A stretch of DNA of 64,000 nt from Prevotella sp. GTDB taxonomy: Bacteria; Bacteroidota; Bacteroidia; Bacteroidales; Bacteroidaceae. The stretch's first letter is position 1; every line of letters begins with the position of its first letter. The notes beneath the pieces are model-generated. The model was not told the DNA's origin and searched no databases. It was given only the letters and a program-made list of their open reading frames with translations. A program made the position numbers and the translations under genes. Below, one piece after another: positions 3,075 through 54,618 of this stretch. The stretch lies in NCBI GenBank assembly GCA_016291085.1, contig JAEEVW010000010.1, forward strand, positions 40,053-104,052, written 5' to 3'.

Positions 3075-3184
3075 GACAGAGAAGCCTTCTCGCAACCGTT
3101 TGCGTTAGCCCAAACAACCGTGCGCGTTAGCCCAAACAACCGTGCGCGTTAGCCCAAACGACCGTTCGCGTATACGCAAAAGCT
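3075..3184. repeat. intergenic 22-bp-period array (about 5 units)
   Basis: Units at 3075, 3097, 3119, 3141, 3163; e.g. CGTGCGCGTTAGCCCAAACAAC; first unit contains GAGAAGCCTTCTC. Confidence 0.85.
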
Positions 3185-12454: not shown

Positions 12455-15400
12455 ATGAGAAAGACAGGCAATAAGCAGGCAGACATAAGGGTATGGGGTG
12501 TTTTACTTTTTTACCTTTTTACCTTTTCTCCTTTGCTGGCTGACGATATCAGCCAGCAAGAGATGCAGCGCATCTACCAAGAGGTGCGCACGCCTTATAA
12601 ATATGGTATGGTGGTAGCCCCTACGGACAACTACCACAAGATAGACTGTCCGACAGTGTTCCGTGAAGGCGAAAAATGGCTGATGACCTATGTCGTTTAT
12701 AACGGCAAGGACGGACTCGATGGACGAGGCTATGAGACGTGGCTGGCTGAGAGTGACGACTTGTTGCATTGGACGACGAAGGGACGCCTTCTGTCGTATA
12801 AAGACGATGGTTGGGACATGAATCAGCGAGGTGGTTTTCCTGCCCTCATCGATTGGACTTGGGGCGGGGGCTACGAGCTCGGCGAATACAAAGGCAAGCA
12901 TTGGATGACCTATATCGGTGGGCACGGTACAGGCTACGAAGCTGTGCGCGAACCCCTGAACATCGGAATGGCTTGGACACAGGGCGAAATCACTAAAGCC
13001 CATGAGTGGCAGTCAGGCGAAAAACCGCTGATGAGCATTAATGACAAAGACGTGCAATGGTGGGAGCAATTGGTGCAATACAAGAGTACCATTTATAGCC
13101 TCACCCCCAGCTCCTCTCCGAAGGGCGAGGGGAGTGGTTTGCCCAAAGAACTGGCGAAGTATCGTTTTGTGATGTTCTACAATGCTGGCGGCGTCAATCC
13201 AGATAACAATTTGAAGGCTGAGCGCATTGGTATAGCCCTCAGCAACGACCTGAAGAAATGGAAACGCTATGATGGTAATCCCGTCTTTGCCAATGAGGTA
13301 GGTGGCATCATCACGGGTGATGCCCAGATAGCCAAGATGGGCGACCTGTATGTGATGTTTTATTTCAAGGCCTACGACCCGTCGCGCAAGTATAATGCCT
13401 TCAATACCTTTGCTGTGAGTCGCGACCTCATTCATTGGCAGCGATGGGAGGGTGAAGACCTCATCTGGCCCACGAAACCCTACGACGAGATGTTTGCCCA
13501 TAAGAGCTATGTAGTGAAGCACGATGGGGTGGTGTACCATTTTTATTGTGCAGTGAACAACGATCAACAGCGTGGCATCGCCGTTGCTACGAGTGTACCC
13601 ATGGGGCGCTCTGAGGTGCGTTTTCCAGAACCTGAACGCAAAGGTCGTCGCACGATCACTAACCTCAACGAAGGATGGATGGCAAGCATTGTGCCCGACG
13701 GAGAACCGTCGGGAACGGTGGCAGAACCATCGGGCGTCACCATCCCCCACAACTTCGATGACTACTACGGCTACCGCCAGCTACGGCATGGAAACCTGCA
13801 CGGTAGTGCCGTTTATCAGAAAACATTCGTCGCTCAACCACAAGAGGATAAGCGCTACTTCCTGCAGTTCGAGGGCGTGGGCACGTATGCTACCATCACC
13901 CTTAATGATACGCAATATTCTAAGGAACTGATTGGTCGCACCGTCTTTACCCTTGACGTTACAGAGGCTTTGAATACGGGCAAGAACACATTACACGTTC
14001 TTGTCGATCATCCTGCCATGCAGACGGAGTCACCTTGGGTATGTGGAGGTTGCTCATCAGAATGGGGTTTCTCTGAAGGTAGTCAGCCCTTTGGCATCTT
14101 CCGTCCTGTAACGCTCATCGAAACGGATGCTGTGCGCATTGAACCCTTTGGTGTGCATATTTGGAATAACGCTACCTGTGACTCAGTATTTATCGACACA
14201 GAGGTCAAGAATTACACCCAACAGCCTCAGACCTTTGAACTGGTCAATAAGTTTGCCCTCGCCTCTGGCAAAACTGTGTTCCGCCTATCACAAGAAATGA
14301 GACTGGAACCAGGAGAAATGCGAGTCATCCACCAGTCTTCTGCCATATCCAATGTACACCGCTGGTGTCTTGACGATCCTTATCTTTACACGCTCACATC
14401 AATGCTAAAGCGACCAGACCATTACGATGGTGATAGCAACCAACAGCGTGAGCCTGCCTACGTTACTTTCGATGAGGTGCGGACACCCTTCGGTATTCGT
14501 AACATCTCATGGCCTGTTAAGCGCAACGACGGAGATCATCGTTTCTTCCTCAACGGACAGCCAGTCTTTATCAATGGCACTTGCGAGTATGAACACCTTT
14601 TGGGTAATAGCCACGCCTTTACCCCAGAGCAGATCCGCTCGCGCATCAAGCAGATTACCAATGCGGGCTTTAACGCCTTCCGAGAGGCCCATCAGCCCCA
14701 TAACCTGCTCTATCAGCAGTTGCTCGACGAACAAGGCATCCTCTTCTGGAGCCAGTTCTCAGCACATATCTGGTACGATACTCCACAATTCCGTGAGAAC
14801 TTCAAACGGCTGCTAGTGCGATGGATTAAGGAGCGTCGCAATTCGCCCTCTGTTATCCTTTGGGGATTGCAGAACGAGAGTATCCTGCCCAAGGACTTTG
14901 CAGAAGAGTGCAGCGATATTATCCGCTCGCTTGACCCCACCTGTCGTGATCAGCGCCTCATTACTACGTGTAATGGTGGTGAGGGTACCGATTGGAACGT
15001 CATCCAGAACTGGAGTGGCACATACGGAGGCTCTGCTGAGAACTACGACAATGAGCTGAAGCGCCCTGAGCAATTGCTGAATGGCGAATATGGTGCTTGG
15101 CGCACCATCGACCTGCATGGTGATGCGAAATATAGCGAGGAAAGTTTTACCAAGCTATTGGAAACCAAGGTGCGGTTGGCAGAGAAAGCGTTTGATGTCA
15201 GCGGGGAAACCGCTGACAGCAAGGGCGTCTGCGGCCACTTCCAGTGGCTCTTCACCTCACACGACAATCCAGGCCGTGTGCAACCCGATGGCGCCCTACG
15301 TCGTATCGACAAGATTGGACCGATCAACTATAAAGGGCTGACGACGATTTGGGAGGAGCCTACGCCTGCGTATTATATGTATAGGCAGCGGTATGCGGGA

Positions 15401-35836: not shown

Positions 35837-38734
35837 ATGAATACTTGGAAAGCGAATCTCGAAGAGACGAAGAAACACTATATCGACTGGTGGAACCACA
35901 AGGGCATTGTGCTCAACATGTGGGAACACTTTCAGGAAGGCGTCACACCCCATGCTGACATTCCTGCCCCTCAGCCCTATCGCGACTTGAACCAACGTTG
36001 GTTCGACCCAGTGTGGCGTGCGGAGTATTTGGATTGGTATGTGGCGCACTCGTCGATGATGGCTGACATGTTGCCTGTGGCCAATACGCAACTGGGCCCA
36101 GGCTCGTTGGCAGCTATCTTGGGTGGTGTGTTCGAGGGTGGTGAAGATACCATCTGGATTCATCCTGACCCCAATTACAGCGACGATATCAAGTTCGATT
36201 CCAACCATCCTAACTGGCTGTTGCACAAAGAGTTGCTGAAGGCCTGCAAGGCGAAAGCACAGGGTCACTACTATGTCGGTATGCCTGACCTGATGGAAGG
36301 TCTCGACGTGCTGGCAGCTATCAAGGGAACGGACAAGGTGTTGCTCGATACGGTGATGCAACCTGAGGTGCTCGAGCATCAGATGCAACAGATTAACGAC
36401 ATCTATTTCCGTGTGTTCGACGAGCTCTACGACATCATTCGCGAGGGCGACGAGATGGCATTCTGCTATTTCTCCAGTTGGGCGCCTGGCAAGATGTCGA
36501 AGTTGCAGAGCGACATCTCGACGATGATCAGTGTCGACGACTATCGTCGTTTCGTACAGCCCTTTATCCGCGAACAATGTCAGAAGATTGACTATACCCT
36601 CTACCACCTCGATGGAGTGGGGGCTATGCACCATTTGGATGCCCTGTTGGAGATTAAGGAACTGAACGCCATCCAGTGGACGCCAGGTGTGGGAGAGCCA
36701 CAAGGCGGTTCACCCAAGTGGTACGACCTATACCGCAAGATTCTGGCTGGTGGTAAGAGCATCATGGCTTGTTGGGTGACACTCGACGAGTTGCGCCCCC
36801 TGCTCGATAACATTGGAGGCGAGGGTGTCCATATCGAGATGGACTTCCACAATGAACGCGAGGTGGAACAGGCGATGAAGATAGTGGACGACTTCAAAAC
36901 CAATCGTAATATACATCCGTCAGACTTCAAAGACGACGTCGACCTCGAGGTAGAGGAAATCATTCGTCGTGTAGAAAGTGCAGAGTGTGCTTCTGCAGAG
37001 GAAAATACTGATAAAAGTGCGGTAGCAAACTCTACACTCTACACTCTAAACTCTAAACTCAATAAAATCCTCGTTCTCGATGGTGCGATGGGTACGATGA
37101 TTCAGCGCTATCAGTTGCGCGAAGAAGACTTCCGGGGAGCTCGTTTCGCTAACCATCCTAAGGAACTGAAGGGTTGCAACGACGTGCTGTCGCTGACTGC
37201 TCCTTTCGTCATTCGCGACATCCATCGCAAATACCTGGAGGCAGGTGCTGACATCATCGAGACGAACACCTTTAACGCCCAGCGCATCTCGATGGGTGAC
37301 TTCGGCATGCAGGACTACTGTCGCGACATCAACCTTGCCGCAGTCAAGATTGCCCGTCAGTGTGCCGACGAGTTTAGCTCGTCGGATAAGCCCCGCTACG
37401 TAGCAGGTAGCATCGGCCCCACAAGCAGAACAACCTTTGTTACCACCAGTGGCGAGACACTTGATAAGAATGTATTGCGTGAGGCCTACGCCGAACAGAT
37501 TCAGGCCCTCGTTGACGGAGGTATAGACGCCCTGCTCATCGAAACCATCTTTGATGTAGAGAATGCCCGCATTGCCTTTGAGGAAGCCCAGCGCATAGCA
37601 CCTCAGCTGCCTATCATGTTGAGTTTCAGCGTATCTACGCCCGATGGTCATAATATGTTGGGACAGGACATCTGCGAGTTTCTTCAGTCATTGGACAAAG
37701 AAAATATCTTCTCCGTAGGAATCAATTGCGTGAGCGACGTTGCACAGATGGCGCCCCTCGTTTGTCGCTTGGCACAGTTTGGCACACGGGTGAGCCTCTA
37801 TCCCAATGCAGGCATGCCTGATGGTAACGGACACTATAACAAGACTCCAGAGAGTCTGTTGGCTGACGTCTGGCCCTTGTTAGAAGGACATTGCCTGAAC
37901 ATTATTGGTGGCTGTTGTGGAACGACGGATGCACATATCCGCCTATTCGCCAAAGCCATTGAGCCCGTGCCAGGAATTTTTCTGTCGCCATTGAAGACCC
38001 ACCCCCAACCCCTCCCTATGAAGGAGGGGAGTGAATACTCTCCAGTCAAGGAAATAACGGAAAAACTATCTATTCCCATCCCTCATAGGGAGGGGTCAGG
38101 GGAGAGTCTTCTCTTCGAGGCCATCCTGAACGGCAAGAGCGACGAGGCTGCTGCTGCGACTAAGGACGCTATTGCAGAAGGCATTGCTCCACAAGACCTC
38201 ATCAACGGACAGATGATTCGTGCGATGGGTGAGGTGGGTCAGCGTTTTCAGGATGGCAAGGCCTTCGTACCTCAGTTGCTGATGGCTGGTCGTGCGATGA
38301 AGGCCGCCCTCGAACTGTTGAAACCCATGATGGCTGGTGCTGCCTCTACGTCGTTGGGTAAGGTGGTCATCGGTACGGTGAAGGGCGACTTGCACGATAT
38401 TGGTAAGAACCTGGTGGCGTCGATGTTGGAAGGTTGCGGATTTGAGGTTGTCAATATTGGTATCGACGTTTCTGCCGATAAGTTTATTGAGGCCATCAAG
38501 GAGAACCAGCCCGACATTCTTTGCATGAGTGCACTGTTGACCACCACGATGGGTTATATGAAAGAGGTTATCGACGCCCTCGAACAAGCGGGCATTCGCG
38601 ACCAAGTGAAAGTGATGGTAGGTGGAGCGCCTGTGACGCAGGGTTTTGCCGACGAGATTGGTGCCGATGGTTATAGCGACAACGCCAATTCGGCAGTTGC
38701 AGTCGCGAAGCAACTGTTAAAGGTAAAAAGGTAA
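35837..38734 (+). CDS. fusion: UroD-type methyltransferase - MetH-type homocysteine S-methyltransferase - B12-binding corrinoid domain
   Basis: 965 aa; UroD-like aa ~1-390; HcyMT (DGAMGTMIQ, GGCCGTTDAHI) ~410-715; corrinoid domain with DLHDIGKN ~757-965. Confidence 0.88.
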   Translation: MNTWKANLEETKKHYIDWWNHKGIVLNMWEHFQEGVTPHADIPAPQPYRDLNQRWFDPVWRAEYLDWYVAHSSMMADMLPVANTQLGPGSLAAILGGVFEGGEDTIWIHPDPNYSDDIKFDSNHPNWLLHKELLKACKAKAQGHYYVGMPDLMEGLDVLAAIKGTDKVLLDTVMQPEVLEHQMQQINDIYFRVFDELYDIIREGDEMAFCYFSSWAPGKMSKLQSDISTMISVDDYRRFVQPFIREQCQKIDYTLYHLDGVGAMHHLDALLEIKELNAIQWTPGVGEPQGGSPKWYDLYRKILAGGKSIMACWVTLDELRPLLDNIGGEGVHIEMDFHNEREVEQAMKIVDDFKTNRNIHPSDFKDDVDLEVEEIIRRVESAECASAEENTDKSAVANSTLYTLNSKLNKILVLDGAMGTMIQRYQLREEDFRGARFANHPKELKGCNDVLSLTAPFVIRDIHRKYLEAGADIIETNTFNAQRISMGDFGMQDYCRDINLAAVKIARQCADEFSSSDKPRYVAGSIGPTSRTTFVTTSGETLDKNVLREAYAEQIQALVDGGIDALLIETIFDVENARIAFEEAQRIAPQLPIMLSFSVSTPDGHNMLGQDICEFLQSLDKENIFSVGINCVSDVAQMAPLVCRLAQFGTRVSLYPNAGMPDGNGHYNKTPESLLADVWPLLEGHCLNIIGGCCGTTDAHIRLFAKAIEPVPGIFLSPLKTHPQPLPMKEGSEYSPVKEITEKLSIPIPHREGSGESLLFEAILNGKSDEAAAATKDAIAEGIAPQDLINGQMIRAMGEVGQRFQDGKAFVPQLLMAGRAMKAALELLKPMMAGAASTSLGKVVIGTVKGDLHDIGKNLVASMLEGCGFEVVNIGIDVSADKFIEAIKENQPDILCMSALLTTTMGYMKEVIDALEQAGIRDQVKVMVGGAPVTQGFADEIGADGYSDNANSAVAVAKQLLKVKR
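37026..37060. repeat. heptamer tandem repeat encoding interdomain linker 1
   Basis: TCTACAC TCTACAC TCTAAAC TCTAAAC encodes NSTLYTLNSKLN. Confidence 0.85.
37995..38109. repeat. C/G-rich composite inverted repeat encoding interdomain linker 2
   Basis: AGACCCACCCCCAACCCCTCCCTATGAAGGAGGGGAGTG ... CATCCCTCATAGGGAGGGGTCAGGGGAGAGTCTT. Confidence 0.85.
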
Positions 38735-38758
38735 AAAAGTAAAAGGGTAAAAAGGTAT
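38719..38758. repeat. octamer repeat overlapping the 3' end of the fusion gene
   Basis: AAAGGTAA AAAGGTAA AAAAGTAA AAGGGTAA AAAGGTAT; first 32 nt identical to 61501-61532. Confidence 0.9.
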
Positions 38759-43989: not shown

Positions 43990-44182
43990 GTTTGCTCGGA
44001 GCAATCGATGGGTTTGCTCGGAGCAATCGATGGGCCCGCTCGGAGCAACAAGCCGTTTCGCTGGTAGCGAGAGGCCGTTTCTCTCCCAGTGAGAGGCCGT
44101 TTCTCTCCCAGCGAGAAGCCGTGTTGCTATTTTTCCCTGGGCAGGGAATTTTTGCGCGCTGGGCAGGGCGCAAATTTTCGCT
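43990..44182. repeat. intergenic 22-bp-period hairpin array (about 8-9 units)
   Basis: Units GTTTGCTCGGAGCAATCGATGG (43990, 44012), one 21-bp unit (44034), GTTTCTCTCCCAGTGAGAGGCC (44077) etc.; CTGGGCAGGG hairpins at 44137 and 44159 keep the 22-bp spacing. Confidence 0.85.
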
Positions 44183-49205: not shown

Positions 49206-50624
49206 ATGATGAAAGTGAATAGTACTGTTTTGAGACGGGTAATGGGTCTTTTACCTTTTTACCTTTTTACCCTTTTACCTTTAAACGCTCAGACTTTTGA
49301 GACTCGCTACGAGCGTCCTGTCAGCGACCTGATGAAGGATGTTGCCAAGCGTTTTGGTGTGAAGTTCAAGTTCGACGGCAATGTCGATACCGTGGGCAAA
49401 CGTCTGCCCTATGCCGACTTCCGTGTGCGCCCCTATAGCATCGAGATGACGCTCGACAACATCTGCAAATACTACGACTGGAACTGGTGGAAACAGAGCG
49501 GCAACCTCTATAAAATCAAGCTCTATGAGTATCCGCGTCGTCATGAGCAAGAGGGAAAAATGATGCTCGACTGGCTCTCGTCACTTTATAATAATAAGGA
49601 GCAATGGGAGGCTCGTCGTGACTCATTGCGTCGTGAAGTCCGCCAACGACTGGAATTGGACAAGTTCCTCGACTCATGTGTGATGGTGAAGGACAAGAAA
49701 GGCAATCTGCAACGGCCCGTCATCCTCTCGAAGATTCGCAAGCACGACGGCTATACCACGCAGAACATCTGTATCGAACTGACGCCAGGCCAGCACCTCT
49801 TTGGTACGATCTATAACCCCTCCCCCGTCCCCTCTCGAGGGAAGGGCGTAAAGAGCTCTAAAGGTAACAATTCCTCTCCCTCGGGGAGGTTAGGAGGGGG
49901 TTATCCCCTCATCGTCTGCCCTGATGGTCATTGGCCCTATCGTTATCGTAAGGACGAGCAGCAGCGACTGGGCACGCTGGCCCGTATGGGTGCCGTGTGT
50001 GTTGATTTCGACCTCTATGGCTGGGGCGAGAGTGAAAAGGAGGTAGGCGAAGCAGCTCATCACACGAGTCGTGCCCACGTCTATCAGGCTGCTTGTGGCT
50101 ATATCCTGCTCGACTGGATGCTGACCCATCGCAAGGACATCGACCCAGAGCGTGTAGGCGTGATGGGTGGCTCAGGTGGTGGTACGCATACCGTATTGTT
50201 GTCGTTGCTCGACGAACGTGTCACAGCCTCTGCTCCTGTGGTGCATCTGGCCTCGCATTTCGATGGAGGCTGTCCCTGCGAGAGTGGCAAACCCGTACAG
50301 TTGAGCGGAGGTGGAACGTGTGAACCAGAGCTTGCTGCAACCTTTGCCCCAAAGCCTTTGCTGGTGGTATCTGATGATGGCGATTGGACGTCCAGCGTTC
50401 CTCGCTTGGAGTATCCCTATCTGCAACGCATCTATGGCTTCTACGATGCAAAGGATAAGGTGCGTAACGTGCACCTGCCAGGTGAGCGTCACGACTTCAA
50501 GGAAAACAAGCGCCAGGCTGTCTACGACTTCTTCATCGACGTCTTTGGTCTCGACCGCTCGATGCTCGACGAAAGCAAAATCACTATCGAACCTGACGAA
50601 GCACTCAAATCACTCTACAAATGA
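49206..50624 (+). CDS. secreted alpha/beta-hydrolase esterase with N-terminal STN-like domain
   Basis: VGVMGGSGGGTHTVLLSLLDERVTASAPV nucleophile elbow; N-terminal SDLMKDVAKRFGVKFKFDG...MTLDNICKYYDWNWWKQSGNLYKI. Confidence 0.7.
   Translation: MMKVNSTVLRRVMGLLPFYLFTLLPLNAQTFETRYERPVSDLMKDVAKRFGVKFKFDGNVDTVGKRLPYADFRVRPYSIEMTLDNICKYYDWNWWKQSGNLYKIKLYEYPRRHEQEGKMMLDWLSSLYNNKEQWEARRDSLRREVRQRLELDKFLDSCVMVKDKKGNLQRPVILSKIRKHDGYTTQNICIELTPGQHLFGTIYNPSPVPSRGKGVKSSKGNNSSPSGRLGGGYPLIVCPDGHWPYRYRKDEQQRLGTLARMGAVCVDFDLYGWGESEKEVGEAAHHTSRAHVYQAACGYILLDWMLTHRKDIDPERVGVMGGSGGGTHTVLLSLLDERVTASAPVVHLASHFDGGCPCESGKPVQLSGGGTCEPELAATFAPKPLLVVSDDGDWTSSVPRLEYPYLQRIYGFYDAKDKVRNVHLPGERHDFKENKRQAVYDFFIDVFGLDRSMLDESKITIEPDEALKSLYK
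49249..49280. repeat. octamer (TTTTACCT)x4 encoding the signal-peptide core
   Basis: TTTTACCT TTTTACCT TTTTACCC TTTTACCT encodes LPFYLFTLLPL. Confidence 0.85.
49815..49904. repeat. in-frame C/G-rich composite palindrome
   Basis: Outer ATAACCCCTCCC / GGAGGGGGTTAT; inner CCTCTCGAGGG and CCTCTCCCTCGGGGAGG. Confidence 0.85.
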
Positions 50625-51758: not shown

Positions 51759-52342
51759 AGAAAGATTTGATAGAAAGACTGTTGAACGAGCAGACCACAC
51801 CCGAAGAGGAGCATCTCGTAGCCCAGATGCTTCAGCAAGAGGAGGATATGGACTCTTGGCTCGCAGAAGACGAGACGGCAGAATACGACCGCATCGTCAA
51901 CGAACGTCGTGCCAAGCATCGTACGTTGCGATGGGCTGTTGCCGCAGTCATCGTGGCGTTCATTGCGGTGGGGGCCATTGTGCTTTGGCCAAGGGAACAG
52001 CTTGATCCTGGAACACAGTGTCCAGATTTTTCCGAGAGACATACTTCTGTTGTCATTACAGAACCATCAAAACCTGAGGCACCACCCACGAAAGCCAAGA
52101 AACGTATCAGAAGGAAGGCAGCAGTTTCTACCACTGACAGCCTGCAATACTACATTGCCCGTTTGGAGAAGGAACTGGAGAACGTTAACGAAAGCACTTA
52201 CACCGCCAAAGCAGAAGAGGTGTTGCGTGCTGACGCCCGATTGCAGAAGCTGGTACAACGCATCATGATGGGCGAACTGACGAAAGACGATGTGTCTGCT
52301 GAGGCAATGAATACGAACCAAACAATGGAGGAACAGCCATGA
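51755..52342 (+). CDS. putative anti-sigma / single-TM regulatory protein
   Basis: Overlaps ECF sigma gene; one TM (AAVIVAFIAVGAIVLW). Confidence 0.6.
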   Translation: MKKDLIERLLNEQTTPEEEHLVAQMLQQEEDMDSWLAEDETAEYDRIVNERRAKHRTLRWAVAAVIVAFIAVGAIVLWPREQLDPGTQCPDFSERHTSVVITEPSKPEAPPTKAKKRIRRKAAVSTTDSLQYYIARLEKELENVNESTYTAKAEEVLRADARLQKLVQRIMMGELTKDDVSAEAMNTNQTMEEQP

Positions 52343-54618
52343 GACGTTTGATATTAATCATAGGAATAGCGTGGGCTACGCTGAACATGAATGCCCAGAG
52401 CATCTATAGTTTTGGCGACCTGCGGGCCAAAGTGCTCCATGTGGGTCAGAAACTGACTGGTCATAACTCCGCTAACGATCAGGCCATTGCAGTCATTGTG
52501 CGAGAGTTGGCTACGAACTATCAAGGTCGTTTGTCGCGCCAACAGTTTCAGGAGCTGAAAGACACCATCGAGAGTATGCGTCAGCAAATCACAGCGGACA
52601 CTTGGAAAACGGTCTTAAACAGTGCCGTTGAAACGTTGCAGGAAAAGACGGATACACTCGACATCGAGCAGCGAATTCTTAACTACTACCGACGAGTACC
52701 ACAGGAACAGATCTACGTCCACACCGACAAGCCTTACTACGTGGCAGGTGATACTGTTTGGTTCCGAGCCCATTTGGTGGATGCTGTTACGCATACGCCC
52801 ATCAGCCGCTCGCGTTTTGTCTATGTGGAACTGCATGACCAGCAGGCTGATACGCTCTTGCAACGCATCATCGTGAAGTGCGATTCGGATGGCGTCTTTG
52901 CCAATGCCATCACTTTGCCTCGTGGAATGAAGGGAGGCTGCTATACCCTTGCAGCCTATACACAATGGATGCGTAACTTTCCTGCCGAAAGGTTCTTCTA
53001 CAAGCAATTGCTGGTTATTGATAGTTCCCAAGGTGGGAACGATTCATTCCCAAAGTGGGAACGATTCATTCCCAAGGTGGGAACAATTCATTCCCAAGGT
53101 GGGAATCCGTCGCTACAAGTAGTCCAACGCAAAGGGCAACTGCTTATCCAATTGAACAAGCCTACTAACGAGCCTCTCTCGTGTGTGCTTTATGGTAGTG
53201 GGAACCTCATAGTCACTGACTATACATCAGGGAAGGTGTTACGTATTGACAGCAAAACACTACGTCCAGGAAACCTCTGCATAGCTATCGTCAACCGCGA
53301 GACGGGATACGTCATTGCTGAAAGCCAGACCACCATCGAGGGAACTCAGCCACAGGTAGCCATTAGTGGTAAAGCTCGTACCCTGAACGAACCGATGGAG
53401 TTGTCGATAGACCTTGCAGAATCTGACGGTACACCGCTCTATGGAAGCTTCTCGCTGTCGGTTGCCGATTACGACGTGGTAATCCCCGATACGATACAAC
53501 CATCTATTGACAAGTCTCTGAACCAACTATCTGCCGACTACCCTTTGGCTGATATACTCAACGGCACATACCCCCGCATCGACTATGGTTTCCAGACCAC
53601 ACAGACCATTACTGGGCAGATTCGTGGTACTATCTTCAAAAAAATCAAGAATCCCAAGCTGATGTTGGTACGGCCAGATACCGGATTCCGTCAGACCTTC
53701 GAACTTGGCGACAGTTGCCGCTTTACCATCAACGGCCTCGACTTCGCCGACGGTACAACCTACGTACTGGAGGGTATGCGACGTACAGGCAGTACCAGCC
53801 TCGTACAACTGGATATCACCACACAGACATTCCCTACCTTACATTCGCCTTTTTCCTCTGCCCCATCATCTCTTTCCGTCCCAGACAACTTCGCAAAGCA
53901 AGCTCAAGAGCAGGTGATGTATGGTAGCATAGACCGCGAGATAGAACTGCCCGAAGTAGTCAAGGAGAAGAAGCGTCAGCACAAGCCCACCAACTTAATG
54001 GGGATGCCACCCTTCCGTGCCTTCTATGATGACGACCCCTTGCTCAACAATTTCTACTCGATGGAGATTCTGCTCAGTACCTTAGGCATTCCCGTCTATC
54101 GCGATGCTAATGGCGAGTTACAAATCAGATACCGCTCAGGCACAGTTACGCGAGCGATGCAAGGTCCAGTCATTTTCATCGACGAGTTTCGTAGCAACGT
54201 GGAGGAATTACTGATGCTTCAGCCCCAGGCCATTGAGTCCATCGAATGGTTCGACCATGTCGGTGCCGCCAACATGACCATCTATGGCTGGGACGTGTCA
54301 ACCTCGGGACTATTGCTTGTCCGGCAGAAACCTGGTCTTCATGGTAGGATATTCCGTCCCTTGTCAATGGCTACGGTGCAGCAACAGGGTTGGAAACCCA
54401 ATGTCGAGTTCTATTCTCCGCAATACACGGACAAGAGTCAGAAGACGCGCCCTGACCATCGAACCACACTCTACTGGAATCCGAAGGTCACGACAGACAT
54501 CAATGGTCATGCTCAGGTCCGCTTCTACGCCTCCGACATCTCCAAACGTTATTTGGTGACGCTGGAAGGTGTCAGCAACGACGGAACTGTCGTACGAAAA
54601 CAAATGGTCATAGAATAA
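52339..54618 (+). CDS. secreted MG2/carboxypeptidase-regulatory-like outer-membrane-associated protein
   Basis: YVHTDKPYYVAGDTVWFRAHLVDAVTHTPISRSRFVYVEL is the MG2-like signature; C-terminal FYSPQYTDKSQKTRPDHRTTLYWNP. Confidence 0.75.
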   Translation: MRRLILIIGIAWATLNMNAQSIYSFGDLRAKVLHVGQKLTGHNSANDQAIAVIVRELATNYQGRLSRQQFQELKDTIESMRQQITADTWKTVLNSAVETLQEKTDTLDIEQRILNYYRRVPQEQIYVHTDKPYYVAGDTVWFRAHLVDAVTHTPISRSRFVYVELHDQQADTLLQRIIVKCDSDGVFANAITLPRGMKGGCYTLAAYTQWMRNFPAERFFYKQLLVIDSSQGGNDSFPKWERFIPKVGTIHSQGGNPSLQVVQRKGQLLIQLNKPTNEPLSCVLYGSGNLIVTDYTSGKVLRIDSKTLRPGNLCIAIVNRETGYVIAESQTTIEGTQPQVAISGKARTLNEPMELSIDLAESDGTPLYGSFSLSVADYDVVIPDTIQPSIDKSLNQLSADYPLADILNGTYPRIDYGFQTTQTITGQIRGTIFKKIKNPKLMLVRPDTGFRQTFELGDSCRFTINGLDFADGTTYVLEGMRRTGSTSLVQLDITTQTFPTLHSPFSSAPSSLSVPDNFAKQAQEQVMYGSIDREIELPEVVKEKKRQHKPTNLMGMPPFRAFYDDDPLLNNFYSMEILLSTLGIPVYRDANGELQIRYRSGTVTRAMQGPVIFIDEFRSNVEELLMLQPQAIESIEWFDHVGAANMTIYGWDVSTSGLLLVRQKPGLHGRIFRPLSMATVQQQGWKPNVEFYSPQYTDKSQKTRPDHRTTLYWNPKVTTDINGHAQVRFYASDISKRYLVTLEGVSNDGTVVRKQMVIE
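53025..53105. repeat. in-frame 22-bp-period hairpin array (3 full units plus a core)
   Basis: TTCCCAAGGTGGGAACGATTCA x3 + TTCCCAAGGTGGGAA; 3 x 22 = 66 nt keeps frame. Confidence 0.93.

Follow-up and report, generated by a model that had tools for sequence, protein, structure and literature searches.

A 22-bp hairpin array inside a Prevotella gene keeps its place, period and symmetry while its sequence and peptide turn over

An MG2-like gene in the window, the 64,000-nucleotide stretch of Prevotella sp. DNA analysed here, carries in its reading frame a tandem array of hairpins whose successive units are read in different frames. This arrangement raises the question of what is conserved in such a segment, and at which level. 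The gene and its array are located as follows.

52339..54618, plus strand: host gene of 759 aa with an MG2-like domain at residues 125–210 (based on the ORF, its translation, Pfam and orthologues)
53025..53105, plus strand: in-frame 22-bp hairpin array of four TTCCCA-N3-TGGGAA units centred at 53032, 53054, 53076 and 53098, coding residues about 229–256

The Pfam match of the host protein to MG2 (E 1.2e-6, 29.2 bits) lies below the curated cut-off of 32.8. TRF on 53025–53105 returned a period of 22, 3.7 copies, a 94% match and a score of 148. The hairpins read, in order, TTCCCA-AGG-TGGGAA, TTCCCA-AAG-TGGGAA, TTCCCA-AGG-TGGGAA and TTCCCA-AGG-TGGGAA, and are separated by the 7-bp spacers CGATTCA, CGATTCA and CAATTCA. 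The program and the sequence agree with the initial annotation, which had described a hairpin array of 22-bp period in a coding location; its statement that the frame makes the units translate differently, as SSQGGND, SFPKWER, FIPKVGT and IHSQGGN, is likewise borne out, and the reading frame is open. As a single strand, the array DNA is more stably folded than every one of 200 shuffled versions (z −4.8), compared with a z of −0.4 for a control 91-mer of the same gene. No Rfam match above the gathering score was found in the window. In an AlphaFold2 model of the host protein built from 13 sequences (mean pLDDT 60), the array-coded residues 229–255 have a pLDDT below 50 and are flanked by strands at 220–227 and 259–264. 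The array is thus predicted to code a low-confidence linker between two beta domains.

Orthologues of the host gene in Prevotella MAGs (51–83% identity) carry arrays with the same place and length as in the window and with different arms, namely AGTCCG, GTACG, GTTCC, GTTTCC, GTTTAC and ACTTTA. Nineteen orthologues align without gaps across 129 columns, and the dyad centres fall in identical alignment columns in all 17 scorable array-bearing orthologues. The identity of the array to that of the window is 0.24–0.38, near chance, in 10 of the 12 orthologues compared, with flanks at 0.6–0.8; two more distant orthologues (L041 and L056) have arms similar to those of the window and an array identity of 0.60. 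In four orthologues (L042 and L053–L055) the array is missing and the linker is shorter; in a further one (L048) the linker is degenerate. Since the arms differ and array identity is near chance, neither the peptide nor the DNA sequence is conserved; what these alignments show to be kept is symmetry, period and place. Watson–Crick pairing at the MG2 centres is 0.76, against a background of 0.27 and a value of 0.55 for shuffled partners (maximum 0.585), and doubly changed cells number 126 versus 49. Both counts take related species as separate and are therefore not probabilities; a slid-centre scan that retains relatedness gives the same peaks. Identity within the MG2 arrays is 0.78 at lag 22 and 0.17–0.34 at other lags.

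These results bear on whether the peptide itself is the selected product. The initial annotation had named, as the outcome that would contradict conservation below the protein level, orthologues that keep the peptide and lose the DNA repeat; because the orthologues retain the array architecture with unrelated peptides, that outcome does not hold. Its further expectation of unit-number changes in multiples of three and of phase-variable frameshifts found no support: no scorable orthologue shows a gap in the MG2 array, and in the two other genes described below most orthologues with an array are of one length. The idea that the linker peptide itself is selected, or that unit number drives phase variation, would fit the coding location and the kept frame, but is scarcely credible with unrelated orthologue peptides and a nearly constant unit number.

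The same result was obtained in two genes unrelated to the MG2-like gene, where place and symmetry are kept and the letters are replaced. The PG_1098-like methyltransferase (PG_1098_Fer and Thump_like domains) has arrays in 15 of 30 orthologues, of the classes TTCCCA, GTCCG, GTTTCC, GTTTGC, TCCGC, GTCCC and GAGAAAC. The dyad phase is common to 13 of these 15, and to all 10 with the commonest linker length; the array-less orthologues are all of other linker lengths. Arm pairing is 0.76 versus 0.57 when shuffled. The GH106 rhamnosidase has arrays in 17 of 30 orthologues, with one phase in all ten of the commonest linker length, and an arm pairing of 0.74 versus 0.62 shuffled, a figure lowered by the inclusion of one chance centre in the flank. 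The GH106 orthologues were fetched with an abridged query (first residues wrong, a middle piece missing), which served only for fetching. In other Prevotella genomes, in-frame TTCCCA arrays lie between Pfam domains in cbiA (L137 and L160; cobyrinate diamide synthase) and in rsmF (L151; 16S rRNA methyltransferase RsmF), both of which code for housekeeping enzymes. Depending on the frame, a unit is translated in these proteins as S-Q/H-x-G-N, F-P-x-W-E or I-P-x-x-G. Separately, an AGTCCG-class array in the genome of the window lies in frame in a 312-aa ORF without a Pfam match (L287:8395–9333), whose product may be a short protein of membrane or regulatory type.

The turnover of the units has left traces within the arrays. 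Loops are identical in 32% of cases within arrays versus 6% between arrays, and spacers in 39% versus 6%; this far higher agreement within arrays shows that the units are homogenised with one another as direct repeats. Changes on both sides demonstrably restore arm pairing. A mixed array (L305) holds the intermediate arms GTTCCC, GTTTCC and GTTTCT, and homogenised mismatches awaiting a change in the partner occur, for example GTCCG/CGTAC in L329. We infer that the force restoring arm pairing acts on DNA. Template switching is able to restore stems (PMC8794818) and, in coding DNA, homogenises arms and inverts loops (PMC8604942). Within arrays, neither inverted loops (8.6% vs 6.0%) nor inverted spacers (2.8% vs 7.0%) are enriched, and loop inversion was accordingly rejected as a template-switch signature here.

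The stable hairpins and the strong covariation would also suit mRNA hairpins that are selected because they influence translation or the stability of the mRNA. Hairpins in mRNA would favour G·U pairs. On the sense strand, however, G·T mismatches within arms are rarer than A·C mismatches (24 vs 45, in cells that are not independent, with a GT:AC ratio of 0.89 expected from composition), and the RNA level is therefore not supported. The arrays are, moreover, near-symmetric for both strands, and intergenic copies occur in codirectional, convergent and divergent gaps (20, 6 and 6, against a background of 333, 85 and 161), a difference too weak to claim a preference for 3′ ends. Selection on mRNA hairpins is accordingly improbable. 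Of the conservation at the DNA or RNA level initially proposed, the placement below the protein level stands; the RNA part is not supported, as a G·U excess is absent, and the DNA letters are unconserved as well.

The array in the MG2-like gene is one of several in the window. The others are listed here without strand.

20703..20867: intergenic 22-bp arrays of two classes, GGGCG..CGCCC units followed by CTCGCT..AGCGAG units
43990..44122: 22-bp arrays of TTGCTC..GAGCAA units followed by TTTCTCTC..GAGAG units, in a common 22-bp phase
3093..3171: intergenic 22-bp tandem array with weak palindromes

The arrays at 43990..44122 are probably intergenic, overlapped merely by a short antisense ORF. As first described, the intergenic arrays share the architecture of the in-gene array, namely dyads in 22-bp phase, with other unit sequences. 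The window also contains, near gene boundaries, one 8-bp tandem repeat at four sites (12501–12534, 38719–38757, 49249–49282 and 61501–61533); its unit is TTTTACCT, whose reverse complement is a rotation of AAAGGTAA, and 7-bp repeats of other kinds lie close by.

A sequence-blind detector, in which dyads recurring at a set step are the sole feature scored, was applied to sampled stretches, to which all array densities refer. In 610 kb, partly selected for arrays, it found 34 loci with dyads at an 11-bp step (corresponding to the 22-bp unit) and at most 6 at any other step, with none in shuffled sequence at an equal threshold. Further stretches were not selected contig by contig for arrays. Among these, the genome of the window has 11 step-11 loci in 459 kb, which include the window itself and two contigs initially found by a pattern match. 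G016 has 5 loci in 100 kb, G127 has 5 in 200 kb and G010 has 2 in 39 kb; G118 has 4 in 394 kb, one of them AT-rich, a small excess over other steps, and 100 kb of G024 has none. No step-11 locus was detected in 100 kb of G037, from another family, or in 323 kb of other Bacteroidota, and a further 252 kb from other families yielded one, AT-rich and not above other steps. The arrays are thus dispersed through Prevotella genomes, and the other Bacteroidota sampled show no excess over other periods. TTCCCA-class arrays occur in 27 of 100 genomes of the genus, with up to 68 matches and none for a reversed-pattern control; the GTCCG class occurs in 15 of 18 genomes probed, that of the window among them, and the two classes are often found together in one genome. 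Successive arrays of unlike class stand in a common 22-bp phase at 20703–20867, at 43990–44122 and at L166. The flanks of the arrays compared are mostly unrelated, and shared flanks or terminal repeats, as a sign of a transposon cassette, were rejected on these grounds.

In another explanation, the arrays are phased binding sites of one or more trans-acting DNA-binding proteins acting as dimers, with one dyad per helical turn. The arm classes would be recognition sequences, and a shift in the specificity of the protein would drive compensatory change in the arrays. The privileged 11-bp phasing, the constant number and phase within genes, the fixed arms with free loops and the lack of a G·U excess are consistent with this idea, and the reappearance of a few arm classes across numerous loci and genomes favours a sequence-specific factor. 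That several classes occur side by side in one genome, or even in one array, disfavours any single factor. Within a genome, the two gene sites frequently belong to different classes (6 of 11 match versus about 3.6 expected, a hand count that is not decisive), and no candidate protein was found. We regard binding sites as a serious but unlikely explanation. A broader proposal, in which the arrays serve a so far unrecognised DNA system that acts across the Prevotella genome (a binding factor or a dyad writer) and whose recognition sequence shifts between species and carries the arrays along, in-gene ones included, with position and helical phase unmoved, is similarly doubtful.

A further model is mobilisation as REP sequences by a RAYT transposase (Y1_Tnp, PF01797), and genomes that bear arrays more often have a RAYT subfamily of about 270 aa (20 of 27 versus 16 of 73, by hand count). 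However, at nine RAYT loci the palindromes beside the gene are of other kinds, such as GGGGACNGTCCCC, with no 22-bp arrays next to it, and neither PF01797 nor a RAYT protein query detected a RAYT in the array-bearing genomes G118 (57 matches, 99% complete) and G035 (41). The REP/RAYT model was rejected on this evidence and is very improbable. The palindromes of the RAYT genes (L215–L223) are their own, of the GGGGACNGTCCCC or GGGCCTGGCCCC kind, and vary by locus. Adjacent matches to only the first ~40 and last ~40–55 residues of RAYT were noted at G105:C46:159-369, G105:C49:2595-2805 and G006:C72:1450-1767, as if these were internally deleted MITE-like derivatives.

A full-text literature search, with subscription journals mostly outside its scope, returned no 22-bp hairpin arrays described in Prevotella; in that literature, and to our knowledge elsewhere, no repeat family is described as retaining its place, length and mirror symmetry yet swapping its letters and coded peptide. 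The nearest known systems are Rickettsia palindromic elements (RPE), PARCEL and REP, each of which fails at least one defining feature. RPE are single palindromes of about 100–150 bp whose family sequence is kept. They lie in frame, as do comparable coding palindromes from Wolbachia and Methanocaldococcus, in non-structured segments of unrelated genes, including housekeeping genes (PMC2996958). The Prevotella arrays are likewise in frame in unrelated genes, namely the MG2-like, PG_1098-like methyltransferase, GH106, CbiA and RsmF genes. In contrast to one long palindrome that follows a family consensus, the arrays consist of tandem, helix-phased 22-bp units of several unrelated arm classes that turn over at a fixed place. 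Palindromic amphipathic repeat coding elements (PARCEL) are also tandem palindromes in coding sequence (PMC2996958), but have a conserved 25-aa (75-nt) amphipathic repeat, whereas the arrays have a 22-bp unit, a shifting frame and an unconserved peptide. REP/BIME are likewise short dispersed palindromes, mostly extragenic and sometimes intragenic (PMC3733652); the arrays differ in their strict 22-bp head-to-tail phase and are not at RAYT genes, and no constant GTAG/CGTC tag, a REP feature, was seen by eye beside the arms in TTCCCA units and flanks. PINSR of Prevotella intermedia is another dispersed Prevotella repeat, described as intergenic with one 188-bp consensus (PMC4755523) and not as a tandem 22-bp structure, a description that differs from that of the arrays. 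Nematomorph mitochondrial genes also contain coding inverted repeats, for whose upkeep template switching has been proposed (PMC6649704); these are long and single, with arms that code conserved protein, unlike the arrays.

On the best reading, the array belongs to a coding palindromic element that is dispersed and can be likened to RPE, from which tandem units, helical phasing and sequence turnover distinguish it. As to its upkeep, we tentatively favour, at somewhat less than even confidence, a REP/RPE-like passenger element whose symmetry is upheld by DNA-level processes at hairpins and whose peptide is a tolerated linker, not a selected product. The array would be a member of a dispersed Prevotella DNA element of 2–5 or more 22-bp units, with dyad centres spaced by about one helical turn (11 bp). 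Copies would have entered genes where flexible linkers are coded, stop-free sets of units being tolerated in frame. After entry, the place, length and phase of an array would stay and the arm sequences would turn over, the units being homogenised mutually as direct repeats and arm pairing being restored by some DNA-level process, such as arm-to-arm templated repair or copying in addition to tandem homogenisation. This passenger element is consistent with the different letters in the same columns of all 17 scorable MG2 orthologues; with the MG2 pairing and lag-22 identity and their repetition in the methyltransferase and GH106; with the in-frame arrays of CbiA and RsmF and the modelled low-confidence linker; with the homogenised loops and spacers and the intermediate arms of the mixed array; and with the absence of a G·U excess and the wide occurrence of TTCCCA arrays in the genus. 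Against it, template switching at inverted repeats should invert loops (PMC8604942), and such inversion is not enriched. A few arm classes (TTCCCA, AGTCCG) recur across many loci and species, which is unexpected from drift alone, and the contrast between the class of the window and that of its near relatives looks like block replacement. The near-constant unit number calls for some constraint, and the search turned up no transposing enzyme.

In three unrelated genes, then, a segment of coding sequence preserves its mirror symmetry, period and place though not its protein or its DNA letters. The upkeep of palindromes in genomes, by selection for a factor or by self-correcting mutation, thereby becomes testable in a common gut genus. 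The findings also advise caution, since a rapidly changing linker of a Prevotella protein may represent repeat DNA instead of protein adaptation.
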